Below are positions 3,566 to 51,899 of a DNA stretch of 53,391 nucleotides, piece after piece. The position numbers and the translations under genes were made by a program. This DNA is from Mycoplasma todarodis (GTDB taxonomy: Bacteria; Bacillota_I; Bacilli_A; Mycoplasmatales; Metamycoplasmataceae). Every line of letters begins with the position of its first letter. Within the stretch, counting starts at the first letter, position 1. The stretch covers positions 1 to 53,391 of the forward strand of contig NZ_PSZP01000004.1 of assembly GCF_004335995.1 (NCBI RefSeq). Direction: 5' to 3'. The notes under the pieces are model-generated. The model did not search any database. It worked only from the letters and a program-made list of their open reading frames with translations, and was not told the origin of the DNA.

Positions 3566-4147
3566 ATGAAAAAAAATAAACGTGGACTAGTTGCCAACTA
3601 CTTTAAACCATCAATGTACGTTCGTTCATTCAAAGATGTTAATATAAATTCACTAAAAGAACAAGGGATAAAATTATTCTTGTGTGACTTAGATAATACA
3701 TTAGTGCCTCACTATACTCGTTTACCAAATAAAGAAGTATTGAGATTTATTAAGACGGTTGAGTCATATGGTATGGAATTTGTTGTTGTTTCTAATAACA
3801 CCAAAAAGAGAGTTGATATGTTTTGTAAAAGGGCAAATATCAAACAATGAAAAGGTAATGCTAAAAAGCCTCTTAAATCCTCAATTTCAGACATCATGAA
3901 GAACTCTTCAGTAAAACCAAGAGAAACAATTTTTATGGGGGATATGATTATTACAGATATATTGATAGCTAACCGTATGAAAATGGAATCAATCCTAGTT
4001 CAACCTTTAGTTTCCACAGATTATAAAATGTCAGCATTGCATACTTTTTTAGAAAATGTTATCTATAAACGTCTAGAAAAGAAGAATATTCTTAAGCGGG
4101 GTAAATATTCTTTAGGACATTTAAAAACTTCCTTTGAGCTTTTATAG
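3566..4147 (+). CDS. YqeG family HAD IIIA-type phosphatase
   Basis: 193 residues. HAD motif I is CDLDNTLVPH (Asp at about 41 and 43), motif II is VVVSNN (about residue 74), and motif III/IV is MGDMIITDILIANRM (about 126). This is the layout of B. subtilis YqeG, a small cytosolic HAD-IIIA phosphatase that lies with aroE, yqeH, yqeI, nadD and yqeK. Here too it precedes nadD and the YqeK domain, so the order is conserved, though each gene has its own promoter. Physiological substrate unknown. Confidence 0.85.
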
Positions 4148-37962: not shown

Positions 37963-39512
37963 TGAGAATCTTTCCTCGAAATTATTGTAACCGAACCTGC
38001 AACAATTAATAATGTTAATATTGTTCATACAATGTATGTTCCTTTTTTATCAATGTATTCAACAGGTAATAGTATAGGAACTTCTTCCCCATCTTTAATA
38101 AGTGTTAAATCATAGGGATTACCAAATCGATTTATGAATCCTAAAGTTTTTGGTGATTTCAATAAAGTTTTAGAATTTATTTCTTTATTATTGATCATTA
38201 ACGATCAACTCATTAGTGATCACCCATCAACTTTGAATGTTGATAGTGGTTGCTTATTATCACCTATTAGCATCCCTCTTCCATATTGCAAATTAGCTTC
38301 TTCGTTTGTTAAAGAATCTATTATACGAGTTGTTTGTTTAATGAATTTTTCCAATAAAATAACATCTTTATCAGTTGAATGTTCTTTTGTAGCACTTACA
38401 AATAACATTTGCTTTACGAAACTTCATGAATTAAATGTAGATGAAATGTTCCTGATGTTTTTTAAGTATTCAAGTGAGTTATTTTGACTGTTGGGGTTGA
38501 TGTTCATGATTCCAGCAGTTGATTCTTTCTTTGTTGAAGTCATTTCCCCTCTAAAACCACTTGATATTAAAGGTGTATATTCTTCACCACCAATCTTAAT
38601 AGTGAACTCATTTGCCCTCCTATGATAAGTTATAGTTTTTTCAATTCATTTTTTACCTTCATTAGCGAATTTTGTTTCGTATGTTACATCATACAAACTA
38701 GAAATCTGATATCACGGATCAAAGAAAGCTAGTGTTTTATAAAGAGAATTTTGTTTATATTCATCATATTTATATTTGAAGTTAGGTACAAAAATTGAAT
38801 CTTTATTTATAAAGATGGTATTCTCACTATCTTCATCTATGTATATATCTTTTTCCGAACCTGTCGCTATATCTTCAAGATTTTTACCCGCTTTTACATA
38901 TGCTGGCAATAAATGTGATGCTGGCATTTGAGGTTTAACCGTTTGTGAGAGAATGATTGAGAAGGAAGGGACAAATACTGCAGCGACGGCCGCTAAAAGA
39001 AGGATTATCTTTTGAGAAGCTACCGTTGAAACAATAATAAGAATAGATGATACAGCAAAAAGTATGGTTATATTACCTATGAATATTGAAATACTGTAAT
39101 CTCATATTAAACGAGAGTCTGCCTTTGAATCCATTAACGCAACGAGTGAAGTGGCTATAAATAAAACAACTGAGAAATATACTATTAAAACCCAAATAGA
39201 TATAAACTTCGAGAAAGTTATTTCTTTTTGTGAAATTGGTTTTGAAATATAAACAATATCTAAACCAGTATCTTTTGGCTGCCTGAAGATATTAACAACT
39301 TTCAAAGCAATGAATATAACTGAAATCGCAAACACCGTTATAAATGCATACTCATTACCTTTTCTTATAAAGGATATACCTTTTTCAGAAAAGGTACCGA
39401 ATACTTGAGCGTATGTCAATATAGAATAAATGATTATCCCGAATATAGGAATTAAATAAGTACTAAGCTTAAGAAATTCATTTCTTAATGTGTATCTAAC
39501 TAATTTAAACAT
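37959..39512 (-). CDS. Large ABC transporter permease subunit
   Basis: 517 residues. Start MFKLVRYTLRNEFLKLSTYL after a perfect SD (AAGGAGGTG). TM segments near residues 18-36, 52-75, 98-123, 136-158 and 165-185, then an ectodomain of about 290 residues and a final TM (TYIVWTILTLLIVAGSVTII) with a basic tail. This suits an ABC-2-type exporter or lipoprotein-processing permease. The ATPase gene overlaps it by 8 nt, so they form a unit. Substrate unknown. Confidence 0.82.
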
Positions 39513-40245
39513 TAGACACCTCCTTAGGTTTAACACTTTCTAAAAAAGCATCAACCAAAGTTCTACCATTTTTAAATGTATTAACATCACCAGAAAAAAT
39601 AACTTTACCTTCAGATAAGATTGTAGCATCATTTATAAAACCATCAAGTTCAGCTAGGATGTGCGATGTAATAAATACAGTAACCCCATCTTTGTTCAAT
39701 TTTCTTAAATCATCAAATAATTCAGCACGAGCTATTGGATCTAAATTAGATGCTGGCTCATCCATGATAATTAAACTTGGAGAATTAATCAATGCTTGAA
39801 TTAAAAGGATTTTTTTCTTTTGTCCCGATGATAATCTATTAGGATTCTTTTTAGCTAAGTGATTAACCTCATATTTATCTAATAACTCTTTAACTCTTTG
39901 TTTCGAATCCCTTAACGTCATACCGGATAGATTACCCATGTAAGTCAAATATGTTAATACATTTTGTGCAATTGGGAATATCGGCCTTTCAGGAACATAA
40001 CCGATTATATTTTTTGTTATTTTTAATTTTGAAGATAATCCATCAATGGTGATTTCCCCCTTGTATTGATTGTATGCTCCAATTATTGCTTTGATAGTTG
40101 TGGTTTTACCAGCACCATTAGCGCCTAAGAAACCATGAAACGAACCCCTCTTAACCTTAAAAGAAACATCATCAACCACAGTTGATTTACCAAAGCTTTT
40201 TACAAGCCCTTTAACTTCGATGATGTTCTCTATAGATTTAGACAT
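39505..40245 (-). CDS. ABC transporter ATP-binding protein
   Basis: 246 residues. Walker A GANGAGKTTTIKAI, Q-loop region GYVPERPIFP, signature LSSGQKKKILLIQA, Walker B LIIMDEPASNLDP, H-loop FITSHILAEL. The ABC-2/CcmA-type sequence indicates an exporter. It partners the overlapping permease gene downstream. TATAAT lies 6 nt before the ATG with no SD. Confidence 0.9.
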   Translation of the reverse strand: MSKSIENIIEVKGLVKSFGKSTVVDDVSFKVKRGSFHGFLGANGAGKTTTIKAIIGAYNQYKGEITIDGLSSKLKITKNIIGYVPERPIFPIAQNVLTYLTYMGNLSGMTLRDSKQRVKELLDKYEVNHLAKKNPNRLSSGQKKKILLIQALINSPSLIIMDEPASNLDPIARAELFDDLRKLNKDGVTVFITSHILAELDGFINDATILSEGKVIFSGDVNTFKNGRTLVDAFLESVKPKEVSNV

Positions 40246-40251
40246 AAAACA

Positions 40252-40257
40252 ATTATA
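40252..40257 (-). promoter_or_regulatory. -10 box of the ABC ATPase gene, leaderless layout
   Basis: TATAAT ends 6 nt before the ATG, directly after the T-run of the preceding terminator. Confidence 0.6.
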
Positions 40258-40258
40258 T

Positions 40259-40281
40259 AAAAAATACCCAGTAAAGGGTAT
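40259..40281 (-). terminator. Terminator of the YhgE-like pair
   Basis: ATACCC / GGGTAT arms around a 6-nt loop with a minus-strand T-run, about 10 bp past the stop. Confidence 0.7.
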
Positions 40282-40290
40282 AAATTATAA

Positions 40291-41652
40291 TTAATGTTCA
40301 TCATGCACATCAGGATCATGAGATGTGTAGTGACCATATTTCTTAAATCTTTTCTTATCAGCAAAGAAATTAACTGTTAATGATAATGGAATAAATCCTA
40401 GATATATAAAGATTGGTCATTGGTGTAATCACACAACGGCATTGTTAGGGTCTACAAATAACTCTCTAAATGATGCTATTGTGTATGTAAACGGCACTAG
40501 AGGAGCTAATTTACCTCAAGCAGGCGCTTGCATAGTAACTGGGAAAACACCACTAGAAACCGATAATTGAATAATAAGAATTATCAGCACCGCAAATGAA
40601 CCTACCTCACCAACTCTAAATATTGATGAAATACCCTGACAAATTAAGGCAAATATTATAGAAACAAATAATGTATAACCAATTAAATAGCCAGGACTTT
40701 CTACTTTCAATCCAATTGCAAGACATAACGTTGACATTAATAGTGATTGAATCATTGCAGTAGTAACTCACATAATAGTTTTTGAGAAGTAATTTTTGAA
40801 TGTCCCTGCTTGTTGAGCAATCGGTCCAATACGTCTATTTTTATACATGAATATCATCATTAAACATCCAGCTCAAAGAGCTATTGAGAAGAAGTAAGGA
40901 TAAAGAGCATTACCATAGTCTTTTATCTCTCTTCCACCGATTGTTTCAAATTGAAGGAAATGATCTCTGAATGCATTAAATCTTTTGGAAATATTAACAT
41001 GTTTTAAAATTTCAGCCATTTTAGCTGGATCAGCATTATGTGCCTTACCAACTTCTTCAAGTGCTGCTTTTAAAGCATTATTTATAAAACTAGTTTTTAA
41101 AGAAACTATATCCGCACGCATACCTAATAATCTAGCAGAAACATAATTACGTTTGTATGAAGTATAGAATGTTATATGTGGCATTTCAACGCCGGTTAGT
41201 ATATTAGATTTTTTAGCAGTGAAATTAGCATATATTTGAATAGCGTCAGCCATTATCTTACCTGTGAATCCTTCAGGTATGATAAATGCACCATCTATTT
41301 CACCTTCTTGCACAGCTGTTTCTACAGATGCTTTGGTTTTATAGATATCAGAAGCATCTTTAATTGTCATATTGTACTCATCAACATGTAAATCAATTTT
41401 ATGAGTTCCAACCATTGATTTCTTTACAATTTTACTAATTAGTGTATCTTCACTTTTTCCTTTTGATGAAAGTGTCTTATCTAAAGAAACAACCTTGATA
41501 TTCGCTTCATCTGATTTGTGAACTGGATTTTGGAATGCAGATATAAATACACTAGCATATAAAGCTGGTAGCAATAATAACAAGAACATACCAAATGTTT
41601 TTCATCTATTACTTGTCAACTCTCTTAAGTCTTCTCTGATTATTTTTCACAT
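40291..41652 (-). CDS. YhgE/Pip or ABC-2-like membrane protein B
   Basis: 453 residues starting M-W (ATG TGA). One N-terminal TM (FGMFLLLLLPALYASVFISA), an ectodomain of about 220 residues, then about five TM spans including the ABC-2 core (SSISSIF-like; VLIILIIQLSVSSGVFPVT) and a His-rich tail HYTSHDPDVHDEH. The architecture matches YhgE/Pip proteins, linked in Firmicutes to phage infection and to secretion. Its ATG shares a base with the stop of the paralogous gene upstream. SD AAAGGAGGT. Confidence 0.8.
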
Positions 41653-43367
41653 TATTGCACCTCCTTTTTATCTTTCACATCTGAAGGTTGATTTTTATTC
41701 TTTTTTTCTTTTGGTTTCTTAGGTTGTTTTTTGTGTTTGTCTACTCAATCTTTAACACGATCTGTTAATGCAGATTCAATTTCTTTAATTTCTCTTGATT
41801 TTTCTACATCAACTTTTGTAAATGCTTCTGGATTATTTCTTTCTAACTTATTTTTTCTATATGAATAGATAGCTGGCCCTGCGATTAAGAAAGGGATTGC
41901 TAACAAGAATAATGAAAGTAAATTCATACCCCAGTCAATAGCAACAGTATTTGTCAATGTTTGTCTAAAAATATTAACCGAATAAGTGAAAGGAACAATA
42001 GGGTGTAATACTTTAAAGAATCCCTTTTGAGTATATGTTGGGAATAATCCGCCTGATGCGGTTACTTGGAATACAAAGAAGAAAGTAACGAGTATAATAC
42101 CTGTTATTTTTGTAGGAACCATACATCTTATCGAGAATACCATGGTAGAAAATATCATTGCCACTAAATAACCAGTTATGAAGAATAGCGGTATGCCAGA
42201 TCCTAATGAATGGAATCCAATACCAACTAAAGCTCCCAGCAAAATAGTTTCTTGCATTATATTTGCTATTCATATTAAAGATAGTTTAGCGAAGAAGTTT
42301 TTCACTTTTGAAGTTCCACGTTCATGAACTTTTGGTGTGACCATTAAAGTTGTTGATAACGCACCAATTCAAAGACCAACACATATGAATAATGGAGCTA
42401 AACCAAATCCATACTGTTCTATTTCACCTTTACCCTCAAAGTCATTCACAATAACCCTTGGATCAAATGGTTCGAAATGTTGAGACAGAACACCCTTTAC
42501 AATATCAACTGCGCTTACAACGTCATTTTTAACGCTTTGGGGAGTTTTGTTTAATAATTTTGCATATTCTTCAACAGTTTTATTTGTAACTGCATCTATC
42601 ATTGTTTTGTCAGCTGGTTCTTTTGAAGTTAAAGCCGCTTTTATTATTTTCATTATCGATTCACTACCAAGGATTTTGTTATTTGAACCAAATCCTAAAA
42701 CGAAATTCTTTTTATGATTAAAATAAAGTTTAAAAGGAGCTGTAAAATGTTTTGTCGCATTATTTAATGAATCCGCAACTAATGCAGCTGTAGTACCTTT
42801 CGCAACTGGGGTTGGAGAAGTATTTTTTGGCAATCATTTAATTAATGTTTTTGCTATTGTTGAACCAGGTATATTGTGAAAATCATTCAAAGTATAAGCA
42901 AATATACTACCAATATATTCAGTTAAGTTATAAACCTTACTTTTATCGATATTCCCTTGTGCATCTTTTTTATAAATAGGTTGCATAACTATCGAGAGGT
43001 TATGTTTACTTAACTCTTCTTTAAATTCATCATTTTGAGAATATAAATCATTTGCAGCAACTGTTGTTTTCTTGAAATTAATAGTTTTAGATGTTTTATT
43101 CAAGTGGTCAACCTTTTTCATTAAAGATTTATAAACTTCATCATTTTGTTTCATCTTATCAGATGCAATAATAGCCATATCACTTGACTTAGTATTTGTT
43201 ATAGGATCTCACATTGCGAAAATATAAATAAAACCATATAGAAAAGGAACTACAAGAACCCCTAAGAATTTAAGCATCTTTAGTCTATGTCCACCAAAGT
43301 TTGTCTTAAATTCCAATCTAAATATACGGAAAAATTCTTTAACATTCTCCTTGAAACGTTTTCACAT
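41652..43367 (-). CDS. YhgE/Pip or ABC-2-like membrane protein A
   Basis: 571 residues, also starting M-W (ATG TGA). TM1 near residue 30 (KFLGVLVVPFLYGFIYIFAM), an ectodomain of about 270 residues, then TM spans with the ABC-2 core (IILVTFFFVFQVTASGGLFP) and LHPIVPFTYSVNIFRQ, followed by a basic cytoplasmic tail. Same layout as the next gene, so a tandem duplicate or heterodimer; the TAATG junction points to equal expression. No ATPase is in this operon, though one lies just downstream. The SD is AAAAGGAG. Confidence 0.8.
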
Positions 43368-43431
43368 GATAACTCCTTTTAGTTTTTGTATTAAATACAT
43401 TTTAACATTATTTTAAATAAAAAAATATAAA

Positions 43432-44862: not shown

Positions 44863-44891
44863 AAAAAAATAATGGCTAAAACCATTATTTT
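44863..44891 (-). terminator. Terminator of yneF, containing its stop codon
   Basis: AAAATAATGG / CCATTATTTT, 10-bp arms with a 6-nt loop; the TAA stop at 44885-44887 is in the stem; minus-strand T-run follows. Confidence 0.8.
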
Positions 44892-45112
44892 GCAGCTTGC
44901 ATTGAACGCATAACTGATTTAATTTGTGCTTCAGATGGTTTTCTTCCCATTTGTAAGAACATAGCTCTAATCATTTTTTCGTTAATTGGAGGATTTTCTT
45001 TAAGTTGTTTCTCAAACATTTTTTTAGTAACGAAGAAACCAATCCCACCTCCAACTAACATTCCGATGATGAATAATCCGATAATTAAACCGATTGCTAA
45101 ACCTAATGACAT
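44885..45112 (-). CDS. YneF family protein
   Basis: 75 residues. One N-terminal TM (GLAIGLIIGLFIIGMLVGGG), then KKMFEKQLKENPPINEKMIRAMFLQMGRKPSEAQI, the hallmark of the YneF (UPF0154) family, which is nearly universal in Firmicutes and mollicutes. Function unknown. SD AAGGAG 6 nt before the ATG and a TGTATAAT promoter about 40 nt upstream. Confidence 0.93.
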   Translation of the reverse strand: MSLGLAIGLIIGLFIIGMLVGGGIGFFVTKKMFEKQLKENPPINEKMIRAMFLQMGRKPSEAQIKSVMRSMQAAK

Positions 45113-45160: not shown

Positions 45161-45181
45161 AAAAAAAAGCGCTAACGCTTT
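45161..45181 (-). terminator. Terminator of the winged-helix/4-TM operon
   Basis: AAAGCG / CGCTTT arms, loop CTAA holding part of the TAG stop, and an 8-T minus-strand run. Confidence 0.75.
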
Positions 45182-45993
45182 CTTCTTATTAATTTTAATA
45201 TTATTAATACAACAATTGGTATTACTAGGATGATCAATATTGATATGATGAATAACCTTCTATACGCTTTATTCCTAATTGCTTTTATTTCTTCTATTTG
45301 TGATTCAGGAGCCAATTCTGATCCAAAGTATAAGTTCATATCATTGATACGTTTTTTTCTTTGGATTGCGAAGATAACATGTCCAATCGCAATTACCAAT
45401 AATGCAATCGACATTAATGTTGCAATCAATGAAGGATTCCCCATTCAATTTTTTATTCAAATGTCAAATTTAAATACTCATCAATTTACATCTTTTAATC
45501 ATCAAAGGATTATTGTTGAAAGTCCACCGTAAAATAACAAAGTGAATGTGATTCAGTTATGAGCAACTTGTTTCTTATGCATTCCAACATACATTTTCGA
45601 AATGAATGGAGGTGTTGATGTTAATCCAACTTGTATATCTTGACGATATCTAGTTACTGATTTTTTTAAGTTGAAAAATTCTAATGTTGAAATCGAAAAT
45701 CTATAAAGTGCTAGTATACCAGCTATTGAAGGTGCAATATATGTTAATGGTCCAAAATTTCATTTGAAAACCCCTAGTGTTATTATTATCGCCATTGCTA
45801 TTAGCATTGCTCCAGAAAGTATCATTGTAATTATTTGCCTAAACTTTTCTCATCTGATAACTCCATAAATTCCATTTGGAATTTTTCCAGCAGGATCAGC
45901 TACTATTTTTGAATGTTTTAATTCTGTTTTAGTAAATGTACTTGTATTTGTGAATGTAATTGTATCATTACTATTTATTGGTGTTAATTGCAT
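45172..45993 (-). CDS. 4-TM membrane protein, partner of the winged-helix protein
   Basis: 273 residues with several UGA-Trp. The N-terminal 50 residues are soluble, then come TM pairs at about 52-72 (IITMILSGAMLIAMAIIITL) with PLTYIAPSIAGILALYRFSI, a loop containing a WWLKDVNWWVFKFDIWIKNW Trp-rich stretch, and two more spans plus IISILIILVIPIVVLIIL at the end with a KLIRRKR tail. No family recognised. SD AAAGGAGG is inside the upstream gene, and the ATG shares a base with its stop (TAATG), so both are made together. Confidence 0.78.
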
Positions 45994-46646
45994 TAAATAC
46001 CTCCTTTCATAATATTTTCTAGTTTTTCTGTCGGTCTAAATACAAATCTCTTGCCTTGCTTATCTTTTATAAACAATTCTAACTTAGCAAGTCTTTCTAA
46101 TGAACTCCTGGCCGTTTCATAAGAACATGAAACATGTTTTATATAATCATCAATGGAATATGACTTTGTTCTTTCGTTGTAATTTTTTATAAAAGATTCA
46201 TCTTTTTTTGATAATTCCGGAATCATCCTTCTTAAGTCAACATCCTTTTCTTTAACGAAAAAGCTATCAATCTCTTTTATCAACCAGTTTGTTACCAATG
46301 TAAGATCATTACCTTCTTCTTCGAACTCTTTCAAGATGTATAACTTCTTATTTTGCGGAATACTAATAGGAGCTTCTTTATTGGAAACAATCAATTTCGC
46401 AATTTCTGTTATGTAGTCATAATCAATTGCTTCAATGTTTAATTTATGCGATATTTCTACGTTTTTAGCATATCTTTTCTTGATCAATTCGGGTGTTTCA
46501 ACCATCTTTGCATACATATCTTCAAATGAGATAATACTGGTGAATTGAGTTCTATAAGTTTTTACAAATGAAGAAATACTAGAGTCCATTTGCTCTAGTT
46601 TTTTTATTGGAACGTAAATATCATTAGTAAATTTCCCTTTTTCCAT
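45993..46646 (-). CDS. Winged-helix DNA-binding-like protein
   Basis: 217 residues. The last 60 (DYIKHVSCSYETARSSLERL, then KLELFIKDKQGKRFVFRP) look like a winged helix of the kind found at the C-terminus of Fic proteins, but no Fic motif HPFxxGNGR is present. The first 150 residues are helical and unassigned. Encoded with a 4-TM protein, which suggests membrane-linked sensing. TATAAT lies 6 nt before the ATG with no SD, and a direct-repeat array lies immediately upstream, suggesting autoregulation. Function inferred only. Confidence 0.72.
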   Translation of the reverse strand: MEKGKFTNDIYVPIKKLEQMDSSISSFVKTYRTQFTSIISFEDMYAKMVETPELIKKRYAKNVEISHKLNIEAIDYDYITEIAKLIVSNKEAPISIPQNKKLYILKEFEEEGNDLTLVTNWLIKEIDSFFVKEKDVDLRRMIPELSKKDESFIKNYNERTKSYSIDDYIKHVSCSYETARSSLERLAKLELFIKDKQGKRFVFRPTEKLENIMKGGI

Positions 46647-46652
46647 ATAAAT

Positions 46653-46658
46653 ATTATA
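46653..46658 (-). promoter_or_regulatory. -10 box of the winged-helix operon, leaderless layout
   Basis: TATAAT ends 6 nt before the ATG. The repeat array starts 9 bp upstream of it, covering the -35 zone. Confidence 0.6.
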
Positions 46659-46667
46659 CAGCAAAAA

Positions 46668-46729
46668 CTATTTTTTTACTAATTTACTACTATTTTTTTA
46701 CTAACTACTAATTTACTACTAATTTACTA
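46668..46729 (-). repeat. Direct-repeat array at the winged-helix promoter
   Basis: On the plus strand, CTATTTTTTTACTAA occurs at 46668-46682 and 46690-46704, and CTAATTTACTA occurs at 46679-46689, 46708-46718 and 46719-46729, all perfect copies. The last copy covers the stop of the MFS gene. Spacing and position suit multiple regulator sites. Confidence 0.7.
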
Positions 46730-48047
46730 CTTTATTTTCTGTAAAGTGAAATTCATATTGTTGGATTATTTTATAATATGAATTCATTTTCAATCTATTT
46801 GCAACATAAAAGATTATGGTTATGATACTTGTTAATATCGCCATCCCGAATATAATTGGCAACGCTACTCTTACAACATCGAGATTCGCAATTAATTCTC
46901 TACTAATAAGTTCACCTGTTCCTAATGAAAATGAACGCACCGAAAGGAATATACCTAAAACTAATGCGGGGTGTTTATGATCCAGATGTAATGTTGAACC
47001 AAATAAAGTCACTTGGAATACAACAGCACTAATAGAGATGATTGTCACGACAATCCCTCAAACAATAGCTGATTGAGTTTTAGTAATCGCTAGCACAAAC
47101 CCTACAATTGCACTTGCAACCATACTGATAAATGAAAATGCTTTAATTTTTAAAATAGAAAATACTTTAACTAAATATGTTCCTGTTACAATCGCAGCTA
47201 GAATCGAAAGTATAGTGATTCCAGCTAAAATACTTTCTCTTTGATTATAGTCCACCACACCCATTGCTTTCATTACCGCAGAGTTTGACATTAACATTGT
47301 CATAAAAGCCACCAAAGAAGCTGTAATTGATAATTTTCACACCATTGAATAACCTTTAGAAGTGTGCATAACCTCATCCGGCGCACCCAAATCTAAACCA
47401 ATGGTTTCTTTTCTTTCTTTTGTCATTGTGTAAATACCAACATATAAAACCTCAATGATTAAAGCTGAAAGTATTATTCACCTTAAACCTTGCATCGAAA
47501 TACCACCGTTTAAATGTGTTCCTTGTTTAATGATATTTGCCAAAGAAGAAGTTAATATCGGAACTGTAAACATAATAACCGAAGATCAGAAGACTTTCTT
47601 AATATCTCAATTCTCAGATCAATATTGTGAATTAAGACCAAAAGTAGCTCCAACCATACCTGCACCCATCATTGTTAAAACAATTGATCAAAAAGCAAAG
47701 TTTGATGCCACGAGCGTGATCGCTGATAATATAAAACCTATAGCTGAAATTTGAATTATTAATTTCCTAGATTTGAATTTAGCAGATAATATACCGAAAG
47801 GTATACGGACTGCTACTTGTGTAAATTGGTAAAGAGATATAACTATTGGTCATACTCAAGTCTTTGACATTACCCCCGTAACGGAATTAGAATTAACCTT
47901 AAATATTTGCATAGCTATTCAAAAGAAAAATAAAGATACATATATAAAAATGTTGTATCTTTTTAAGTTAGTTGTTTTAAATAGTAATGCAATCACAATA
48001 GAAAACACTAAAGCGAAAGTCATTATAGAAATAATTAATGTTGTCAT
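46719..48047 (-). CDS. MFS-like transporter
   Basis: 442 residues, about 12 TM segments. WPIVISLYQFTQVAVRIPFG followed by ILSAKFKSRKLIIQ resembles the MFS motif A loop, with GLDLGAPDEV in the central cytoplasmic loop. Substrate unknown; no efflux-specific motif recognised. TATAAT lies 10 nt before the ATG and no SD is visible. The winged-helix operon follows with its repeat array overlapping the stop. Confidence 0.82.
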
Positions 48048-48096: not shown

Positions 48097-49890
48097 TTAT
48101 TTATCATTATCTGTTCTAAGCACTTGTAAGAAAGCTTCTTGTGGAACTTCTACAGAACCAAATTGTTTCGCTCTTTTCTTACCAGCTTTTTGTTTTTTAA
48201 GTAGTTTATCTCTACGTGTTCTATCTCCACCATATAGTTTTGCTGTAACATCTTTCCTATATGCTTTGATAGTTTCTCTAGCTATTACTTTTGCACCGAT
48301 TGCTGCTTGAACCGGAATTTCAAAGTTATGCTTAGGAATAACATCTTTAAGTCTTTTAGTTAAATCTCTACCTCTATAGTATGCGAAGTCTCTATGACAA
48401 ATGAATGAAAATGCATCAACTCTATCAGCATTTAACAAAATATCAACTTTAATTAAATCTGATTTTGCATAACCTACAAAATCATAATCAAAGGTTGCAT
48501 AACCTTTTGAAATTGATTTTAATTTATCGAAGAAATCAAAAATAATTTCAACCAATGGTAATTTATAAACCACTCTTCTACGCGTATCATCAATATATTG
48601 TAAATCAAGATATTCACCACGTTTATTTTGACATAACTCCATGATTCCACCAAGGTGTGCTTCAGGAGTTACAATTGTAGCTTTAATGAATGGTTCTTCA
48701 ATGTAATCAATAAATGAAGGATCAGGTAATTTTGTTGGGTTTGAAATAACTTCCATTTCTTTATCTGTTTTATAAACATGGAACTCAACAGAAGGAGCAG
48801 TCGCTATTAATGGAACATTAAATTCTCTTTCCAATCTTTCTTGTAGAACTTCCATATGTAGCATACCAAGGAAACCAACACGGAATCCATGTCCAAGAGC
48901 TAAAGAAGTTTCTGGTTCAAAAGTAATTGAAGAATCTGATAAAGATATCTTTTCAAGCGCTTCCTTAAGTTGTTCATAATCTTTTCCATCAATTGGGTAA
49001 AACCCTGTGAATACTACTGGATTAAGTTTTTTGTATCCTTGTAATGGAGATTCTGTTGGGTTTGATGTAAGTGTTATAGTGTCACCAACAGCAACATCTT
49101 TAGCATCTCTTATTGAAGCAGCGATTCAACCAACCTCCCCAGCTTCTAATGAATTCTTTTTAACTTCAGCAGGATTCTTTATTCCAAGTTCTGTAACATC
49201 AAAAGTATTTCCAGAAGTCATGAATTTAAAGTGATCACCTTTATTAATTTTTCCTTCAAAAATCCTAACTAAAAGAACAACTCCCCTATATGGATCAAAA
49301 TATGAATCGAAAACCAATGCTTTAAGTGGTTTAGAATCATCTGCATTTTTTGGAGCAGGCACAACTTTTATTATTTCTTCAAGTACTTTATCAACATTTT
49401 GACCTGTTTTGGCAGATATTTCAATTGCATCATCCGCAGGAATACCAATAACATCCTCAATTTGTTTTTTTACACCTTCTGGATCAGCTGAAGGTAAATC
49501 AACTTTATTTATAACAGGAATGATTTCTAAGTCATTATCCATGGCTAAGTAAACATTTGCTAAAGTTTGTGCTTCAATACCTTGGGTTGCATCTACTAAT
49601 AGGATTGCACCTTCACAAGCAGCTAAAGAACGTGATACCTCGTAAGTGAAGTCAACATGCCCTGGAGTATCTATTAAATGGAAAATATGATCCTTGTATT
49701 CTATTTGAGCTGCATTCAGCTTGATAGTAATACCTCTTTCTTGCTCTAAGTCCATAGTATCCATGTGTTGGGTATTTAAATCTCTTTTCTGGATTGTGTT
49801 GGTTTGTTCCAAAATTCTATCTGCTAATGTTGATTTTCCGTGGTCTATATGCGCAATAATTGCGAAGTTTCTTATATTTTTCTTATTCAT
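48097..49890 (-). CDS. lepA: Elongation factor 4 (LepA)
   Basis: 597 residues, the usual length. GTPase motifs: [14 protein letters not shown] (G1, residues 13 on), RGITIKLNA (G2 region), [16 protein letters not shown] (G3), [10 protein letters not shown] (G4) and ISAKTG (G5). The C-terminal LepA domain ([28 protein letters not shown]) separates it from EF-G. It acts on stalled or mistranslocated ribosomes. The ATG at 49890 is chosen because the longer reading would extend into the TATAAT box, 9 nt upstream. Confidence 0.96.
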
Positions 49891-49899
49891 AGTGTAAGT

Positions 49900-49905
49900 A
49901 TTATA
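49900..49905 (-). promoter_or_regulatory. -10 box of lepA
   Basis: TATAAT ends 9 nt before the ATG; near-leaderless, no SD. Confidence 0.55.
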
Positions 49906-49947
49906 AATTAAATAAACATATTTAACTAATATATTTAATATTTGCAT

Positions 49948-49974
49948 AAAAAAACAAGGTTAATAACCTCGTTC
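49948..49974 (-). terminator. Terminator of the SHOCT membrane gene
   Basis: AACAAGGTTA (49953-49962) with TAACCTCGTT (49964-49973), one G-U in the transcript, plus a minus-strand T-run. Confidence 0.65.
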
Positions 49975-51899
49975 TATAATTCTTTTTCTATTAAATTCTT
50001 TCTCATTTCAGCGTATTCTTTTTCGCTAATTATGTTACTTTCTTTTAAATCTTTTAATTTTTTTAATTTTTCTTCTAAAGTTGAATTATTTTGTTCGTTG
50101 GTAATTTTATTAGCTTCTGCTATTTTAGGTGTTTCAGCAGTTTCTAAACGGTATTCCTCATCTTTAAGTTCTTTATGTATTAGAATAAGAAGAACTAATC
50201 CAGCGATTTGAATAAATATACTTAAGATAGCTATAATTTTAATAGTTGAATATCTTGAGCCGTGAATACTTGGAACGAACCCTTCTCTTGATTCTAGCTT
50301 AAGAGCTTTAATTATTACTTTAATTGCAATAACTCATGAAACTACTACAACAACAAGTAATTCAATGATCATTAGCATTACCATAACGATTGAAATAACC
50401 ATTGAACCACCATCTGATGTAGTTACCCCAAATAATATTATTCATATTGGCATAAATATAGCAATACATAAAATCGCTACTCCACAGAATAATCCAGAAA
50501 TTTGTAGTCTGAAGATATGGTGTAGTTCTTTTTTATACTCTGAAATACCTCCAGTTATCAGCCCACCACTTTTTATTTCCTTACTTATTGATGTGTTACC
50601 ATAAGCGTCAACTCCCATTAAAATAACGAATACAAATTGACAAATCAATAGTAATGATACAAGCACTACTCCATATGTATAAATTGCAGAAATTGCACCG
50701 TAAGGTTCTGTAAGATCGACTGAATTACCTCATGACATTCCATCTCTTGCACTTCTTTTAACTCATTCTAAATCCACTTCCATAGCAAGGGATATATTGA
50801 TAATAAGCATTGGAATAATAATTATAAATAATGAAACCGTATATAATGTAACACCAAAAACACTTAATTTTGTTCTACTTATTTTCTTAAAGGATTTAAC
50901 TTGAATAATTCATGTGGTTAGTGTCATGATAAATGCAAGTGCAAATAACCCTGCTGAAGCAGCTATCATATTTGAATCATCGATAGTTTTATCAATCATA
51001 TACGAGTGACGTGAAAAAGTACTTTTCGTTGTAACTCAGTTTGATTCACCAAAAAGAATAATCGCTATCATTGTAATAACCATTGTGATTACAGATAATA
51101 TGAAAATTGTGTTTTTTGTTTTTTTAACCTTTGTTGATTTATTTGGTGTTGTTCTCACCTTTGTTGCTTCTGAGTTTTGAACTGTTTCCAACACTTTTCT
51201 TGGTTTCCCTTTAATTAAAGTTAACGTTGAAGTTAGTACTGCAAGTACACCAATAACTAAACCAAAACTTGCAAGTAACGAATCAATTACAAATGATTCT
51301 GTTGTTATGATCGAGTCATTCGAGAATGTTGAAATCATTCCATTTAAAGCTGATGGTTTTTTCTGAATGAAATCTGAGAAATCTTCTCAGTTATACCTTC
51401 AACCAAAACTACGCATCTTACCTTGTTGAACCATGAAATGTCTTGGATCAAGCATAATTTCAGATGGAATAAGAATTACGATAGACATACTTAGTAAGAA
51501 TCCTAAAACCGCTATAACTATTCCTAATATAGCTGAAATTGAGCGCATCTTCACTACGCATGTTATCGATAACGACATAAATACTAAAGCGAATATAGTT
51601 GAAATACACGCTAAGGCAAAGGTGACCACTTGCATCTCCGGATCTCCGATAGTATAGCTACTTGAAACTGTAAAGAAAGCTGTACCATTTTCAAATACAT
51701 CTCTTAAGTCTTGAGTAAAACTTGAATTTTGAAACCCTACATTAACAGCTCAGTTTTTAAAATTTTCAGTAGTTTGCGATGAAGTAGTGAACACTATAAT
51801 CGCAATCATAAATAACATTATAAATGTTAATATACCAAAAATCATTGTTGAGATTCTTAATCCCAAGAATGGTTTTGGTGCTTTTTTGACTGTTGTCAT
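49974..51899 (-). CDS. Large repeat-built membrane protein with C-terminal SHOCT domain
   Basis: 641 residues with many UGA-Trp. Roughly four similar blocks, each a TM span, an extracellular loop of 35-65 residues rich in Ser/Thr/Asn, and two TM spans (for example ALVFMSLSITCVVKMRSISA; SFGLVIGVLAVLTSTLTLI; ALAFIMTLTTWIIQVKSFKK). The C-terminus is a cytoplasmic coiled-coil SHOCT domain: LEEKLKKLKDLKESNIISEK then EYAEMRKNLIEKEL. SHOCT domains mediate oligomerisation in many unrelated proteins. No enzyme or transporter signature. SD AAGGAGAAA before the ATG. Isolated between lepA and fmt. Confidence 0.78.

Follow-up and report, generated by a model that had tools for sequence, protein, structure and literature searches.

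A Fic-derived winged-helix protein family associated with an 11-bp direct repeat at its own promoter and, in deeper relatives, beside dif

Sequence comparison and structure models place P0001, a protein encoded in the window (the whole 53,391-nt stretch of Mycoplasma todarodis DNA analyzed here), in an undescribed family whose members are catalytically dead Fic proteins ending in a winged helix. The family is called REG in this report and comprises proteins with a Fic fold, loss of the catalytic motif and a C-terminal winged helix. We think it probable that REG proteins act on TAGT-N7-TAGT, control their own expression and were ancestrally associated with the terminus and dif, with the Fic core lost in the window lineage. 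Our judgment is evenly divided on the broader statement that this widespread family marks the terminus in a branch of the class by binding TAGT-N7-TAGT around dif and at a near-fixed distance from it, and that the mycoplasmas keep a pared-down form linked to a membrane protein. The analysis assigns an uncharacterized pair of mycoplasma genes to a family and provides them with an origin and a precise candidate DNA site. The features concerned are:

44885-45112, minus strand, gene for a UPF0154 protein, downstream of P0002 (PF03672, E = 3e-29)
45172-45993, minus strand, P0002, 273-residue MSC_0882-family membrane protein (TGA read as Trp; NF045846 match)
45993-46646, minus strand, P0001, 217-residue protein read as a Fic-derived winged helix (TGA-free frame, start ATG at 46646)
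45996-46238, minus strand, residues 137-217 of P0001, the C-terminal winged helix, aligned by VIA-align to MarR-type winged helices
46000-46007, minus strand, Shine-Dalgarno sequence AAAGGAGG of P0002, inside the 3' end of the P0001 gene
46473-46637, minus strand, residues 4-58 of P0001, an N-terminal segment with homology to the N-terminus of long pseudo-Fic relatives
46653-46658, minus strand, -10 element TATAAT, at -12 to -7 before the ATG and invariant in six genomes
46667-46729, minus strand, candidate operator array of TAGT(A) direct repeats, mostly at 11-bp spacing
46719-48047, minus strand, MFS transporter-like gene (PF07690, E = 4.7e-7, below the curated cut-off)
48097-49947, minus strand, lepA, identity read from the sequence, the conserved upstream neighbor of the regulator across the class

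P0001 had been described in the first-pass annotation as a winged-helix protein of unknown family. The winged helix agrees with the AlphaFold model (mean pLDDT 87), whose C-terminal domain aligns to MarR-type proteins with VIA-align Z scores of 8.5-10.2 and an rmsd of about 2-2.8 for most entries. The family is indeed missing from the curated libraries, as Pfam, NCBIfam, PHROGs and PADLOC scans returned none, but the fold itself points to a Fic origin. Sequence searches against the PDB yielded only weak matches, of the BlaI type. Foldseek ranks 1-5 for the P0001 model are all chains of the Fic protein SO_4266 (probability 0.97-1.0, E = 2e-3 to 7e-3). The same winged helix forms the C-terminus of a longer protein in seven genomes (G037, G041, G043, G047, G059, G062 and G064), with a length of 386-425 residues where complete. 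The AlphaFold model of the long form has a mean pLDDT of 69; its Foldseek ranks 1-43 are all Fic proteins with E values down to 6e-7, and it aligns to most Fic entries with VIA-align Z scores of 15-20. In one deep relative, the PF02661 (Fic/DOC) model scores 25.3 bits and passes its cut-off of 24.

Profile-profile comparison relates the short and long forms at both ends. The C-terminal winged helices match with a probability of 99.7% (E = 2.7e-25) and the N-terminal segment with a probability of 80% (E = 1.5e-5). The Fic core that lies between them in the long form is absent from P0001, where the middle of the protein aligns weakly over 33 columns. P0001 is therefore best read, from the alignments and models, as derived from a dead Fic protein by deletion of the core. 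The catalytic HxFx[DE]GNGR(xxR) motif is absent from all short forms and from the long forms of Mycoplasmatales, and a scan of eight deep loci did not flag it. Of this motif, P, F and N persist in deeper relatives (as in PFDxxNE), whereas the catalytic histidine does not. A Fic enzyme may thus have become a pure DNA-binding protein by losing first its active site and next its core.

The array upstream of P0001 was read on the coding (minus) strand, where it extends from -83 to -21 relative to the start codon and shares sequence with the stop codon (46719-46721) of the MFS gene upstream. Exact copies of CTAATTTACTA occur three times (46679, 46708 and 46719) against an expectation of 0.14 in the window, and none of 100 shuffles reaches three; exact CTATTTTTTTACTAA occurs twice, at 46668 and 46690. 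These are the three and two perfect copies that the first reading had placed over the -35 zone, and the true register of the repeat is TAGT(A) with an 11-bp period. TAGTA is present eight times in the 85 nt of the array and at most two or three times in every other 85-nt stretch of the window. A genome scan for the repeat, as had been suggested, finds the phased array at the P0001 promoter alone and one further exact CTAATTTACTA (locus L001, G000:C47:12685-12695). The shuffles and the genome-wide unique phased match rule out general AT-rich noise as the source of the array. A wider regulon does not emerge from the window genome, where paired sites with up to two mismatches number 21 versus 28 in the reversed control.

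The P0001/P0002 pair is present in G001 (MAG DT_67), G002 (Mycoplasma marinum), G009, G020, G021 and G008. The G008 contig stops inside the regulator, and the upstream comparison covers the window genome and the other five. Across the six genomes, the array and TATAAT keep a constant distance to the start codon, with the G009 array displaced by one base. Identity in the five gap-free genomes is 90% in the TAGT columns, 71% in the array spacers, 32-45% in the upstream flank and 100% in TATAAT, and the 11-bp phase is retained while spacers and flanks diverge. A genome-wide search for three phased TAGT units (up to one mismatch) matches only the P0001 promoter in each of the six, and the TAGT copy number per array ranges from 4 to 10 between species. 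Conservation of phase amid diverging spacers, together with the unique match, makes a dedicated autoregulatory operator a well-supported reading, and the comparison thus strengthens the earlier suggestion of autoregulation.

The promoter itself is leaderless as judged from its layout, because TATAAT lies at the same -12 to -7 position before the ATG in all six genomes compared. The leaderless start proposed earlier holds up on this basis, with 6 nt separating TATAAT from the ATG in six of six. About 9 of the 42 window genes (for example at 3566, 39505, 43675 and 52017) likewise have TATAAT at -13/-12 relative to a potential start codon early in the open reading frame. Leaderless transcripts look common in the window genome, so this architecture is not special to P0001. 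A TAGTAA unit occupies the position of the -35 hexamer. PhoB is a winged-helix protein that uses the pho box, an arrangement of 11-bp head-to-tail repeats upstream of the -10 element like that of the P0001 promoter. In contrast to PhoB, P0001 has no response-regulator domain in the Pfam scan, and the one unit between -35 and -10 suits repression better.

The class-wide search detected REG relatives in 64 of 395 genomes. The usual deep gene order in the regions inspected is lepA-REG-hemW-hrcA-grpE-dnaK-dnaJ, and REG of deeper relatives usually has hemW rather than MSC_0882 as its neighbor. TAGT-N7-TAGT lies between the two genes in 27 of the 31 relatives with lepA directly upstream of REG. Among all pairs formed from 256 4-mers at 21 spacings it ranks first, with 27 genomes versus 10 for the next unrelated pair, and shuffles give a mean count of 0.2 and a maximum of 3. 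The pair persists upstream of REG at a genome G+C of 50-56% and is missing in two diverged relatives of the f28 group (G572 and G490). Its presence before REG in so many deeper relatives, including those of higher G+C, indicates that the 11-bp operator is, by sequence comparison, much older than the array in the window. The MFS transporter-like gene stands between lepA and the regulator in the window clade. In G009 (L008, about 1326-1480), the stretch between lepA and the regulator resembles a remnant of this MFS gene.

REG-positive genomes carry further sites, largely on the contig that holds REG. Genome-wide counts of TAGTAG-N5-TAGT in AT-rich relatives are not above the reversed control, and the informative site evidence consists only of clustering, recurrence at the same genes and proximity to dif. 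In G551, a 620-kb contig has 12 sites, of which 10 are gathered in 52 kb surrounding dif and the switch of coding strand; the terminus was placed there by coding-strand bias and dif, the GC skew being too noisy. DnaA-box-like words near some sites raised a location near the origin, which was rejected as dif and the strand switch indicate the terminus.

In six REG-positive genomes, dif lies 100-160 bp from a site. The association was then measured with dif located by its own pattern in a 40-genome set, of which 29 matched. Of the REG-positive genomes, 16 of 20 have a TAGT-N7-TAGT no more than 300 bp from dif, against 0 of 9 REG-negative genomes; the latter are mostly from other families, so that the site and REG could co-vary by descent. 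The REG-positive genomes not used before give 14 of 16, and random places of the same loci give 0 of 413. The flanking sites are oriented toward dif and lie mostly about 135-195 bp away on the XerD-arm side, with sites on both sides in some genomes. The REG gene and dif are separated by 30-52 kb in 18 of 18 genomes. The dif pattern was unmatched in the window genome (G000) and in G002, G037, G041 and G043, and no site is evident in the window genome beyond the promoter array. For these two reasons, a role at dif cannot be extended to P0001.

These observations suggest the following model. REG probably binds TAGT-N7-TAGT direct repeats side by side on one face of the DNA, the units being one helical turn apart. 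On its own promoter, it would most likely repress by occluding RNA polymerase, which is favored because the array covers the -35 zone and spacer of the window promoter; activation is the alternative. The ancestral REG was most likely a terminus- and dif-associated DNA-binding protein, either an Xer accessory factor or an organizer of the Ter domain, because the sites of deeper relatives lie beside dif and also in intergenic positions of the surrounding terminus domain. The same type of site would have let it control its own level. In the window lineage, the Fic core would have been deleted and the operator expanded to 4-10 units, leaving a self-regulating winged-helix gene that drives an operon with an MSC_0882 membrane protein.

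A plain autorepressor with no chromosome role would act on its own operon and a few neighbors, and the sites near dif would be promoters or terminators of a local regulon. Sites recur directly upstream of the yqeG operon, dxs, tkt and dnaG across genomes, as such a regulon would predict, and the array of the window clade is confined to its own promoter. Against it, conserved sites also occur between convergent genes, where no gene follows (plsY/efp and rsfS/permease), and at a near-fixed distance and in a fixed orientation relative to dif. We regard this reading as unlikely, at perhaps one chance in a handful. Less likely again is that another protein, for example an Xer or segregation factor, binds the sites and also regulates REG, which itself binds elsewhere. 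Sites near dif would suit a segregation factor, and binding by REG is putative. Against this stands the occurrence of the site at the promoter of REG in 27 of 31 relatives and its absence from dif in the REG-negative genomes. REG remains the putative binder of the dif sites, an assignment based on the presence of the site in REG's own promoter.

The partner gene had been described as encoding a 4-TM protein that forms a two-part sensing device with the winged-helix protein. NF045846 covers profile positions 2-244 of 244 in P0002 at 191.5 bits versus a curated cut-off of 60, so P0002 belongs to a known family, MSC_0882. A Kyte-Doolittle scan gives five hydrophobic segments rather than four, and the sequence thus probably encodes five TM segments. 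In the literature searched, one paper mentions MSC_0882, and its title and abstract deal with strain differences and not with function. The proposed translational coupling is borne out by the shared base of the P0001 stop and P0002 start (TAATG) and by AAAGGAGG just upstream of the second start.

A two-part sensor, in which MSC_0882 holds or releases the winged-helix protein upon a membrane signal, is improbable, and we rank it below both preceding alternatives. Adjacency could be assessed in 13 of the 14 regulator genomes of the order: MSC_0882 adjoins the regulator in 10, is separated from it by one gene in 2 and is not beside it in 1 (G062). In G064, the two genes stay together at a different locus (obg-REG-membrane protein-hrcA). 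Weighing against the sensor, 287 of the 320 genomes in the order encode an MSC_0882-type protein, compared with 14 that encode the regulator. In many genomes, the membrane gene directly follows lepA with neither regulator nor array, and the deeper REG genes adjoin hemW. A search for the pair in other mollicutes succeeds in close relatives; MSC_0882 is usually encoded without a regulator. Regulator homologs without the membrane partner beside them likewise exist (G062 and, usually, the deeper relatives), although most of those in the order adjoin it. A functional link between the regulator and MSC_0882 is possible and is not needed to explain the array.

BlaI/BlaR1 also combines a winged-helix protein with a membrane-protein gene in one operon, as do P0001 and P0002. 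P0002 differs in having no peptidase or penicillin-binding domain, and the P0001 operator is not a palindrome. A Pfam scan of P0002 found no family at E values up to 1, and so no metallopeptidase or sensor domain as in BlaR1. BlaI/CopY models score below their curated cut-offs in P0001 (PF03965, 15.3 versus 22.6 bits; TIGR02698, 12.8 versus 121.95). Other members of the MSC_0882 family (NCBIfam NF045846), to which P0002 belongs, are usually encoded without a regulator. Finally, the array could be a repeat prone to slippage (phase variation), or a product of low-complexity drift, in place of an operator. This would fit the variable TAGT copy number of 4-10, but is very improbable given that spacers differ between units, that the TAGT cores and their 11-bp phase to TATAAT are preserved, and that the pair persists in genomes of 50-56% G+C.

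In kind, the kinship of REG is rated as lying with terminus-site binding proteins and with Fic-HTH autorepressors. CccR is a Fic protein that represses its own gene through a C-terminal HTH (PMC9755527). REG shares with CccR and further class II Fic proteins (SO_4266; Coxiella Fic2, 8cil) the arrangement of a Fic fold and then a C-terminal HTH. Unlike them, REG has lost the catalytic HxFx[DE]GNGR and the window form lacks the Fic core. The CccR site is an inverted repeat with a 26-bp gap, whereas the candidate REG site is an 11-bp direct repeat. MatP holds the terminus at midcell (PMC6538776). MatP/matS and RTP/Ter pair a protein with dedicated short sites clustered in the terminus, as proposed for REG, whose sites lie beside dif. 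REG differs from both in being a Fic-derived winged helix and in having sites also in its own promoter and at a near-fixed distance from dif. Terminus-clustered sites are found in relatives (the G551 cluster; the 16 of 20 REG-positive genomes with a dif-adjacent site) and not in the window's own genome.

At plasmid cer, an accessory sequence of about 180 bp flanks the Xer core site (PMC5357621). ArgR and PepA are transcriptional regulators that take part in Xer recombination at cer, and the candidate sites of REG likewise flank an Xer site. In contrast, REG is an unrelated protein at the chromosomal dif, where its accessory role is putative. REG bound about 150 bp from dif could act like the cer accessory proteins or like MatP. 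If the dif association is functional, REG would be the first accessory factor at chromosomal dif known to us in these bacteria, none appearing in the titles and abstracts searched, and terminus marking without MatP or RTP becomes a directly testable question.

Some further observations concern repeats and neighboring genes. Long (TAG)n microsatellites in G007, G019, G022, G034 and G045 fit the loose pattern and were rejected as a different thing, probably unrelated phase-variable repeats. Two TAGT arrays occur in G037, which has a long-form regulator. One lies within a dxs-like gene, toward its 3' end (L038, 1500-1540), and one in the intergenic space separating an rpmF-like gene from rsmH (L121, 1400-1450); both are possibly chance or relic. 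In the window, a 641-residue multi-membrane protein is encoded at 49974-51899; the MMOB4860 gliding-motility complex model gives a weak match to its final 40 residues (E = 3e-4, below the cut-off). The region at 39505-43400 holds a gene for an ABC-type ATPase and two consecutive YhgE/Pip-like membrane proteins, apparently in one operon.
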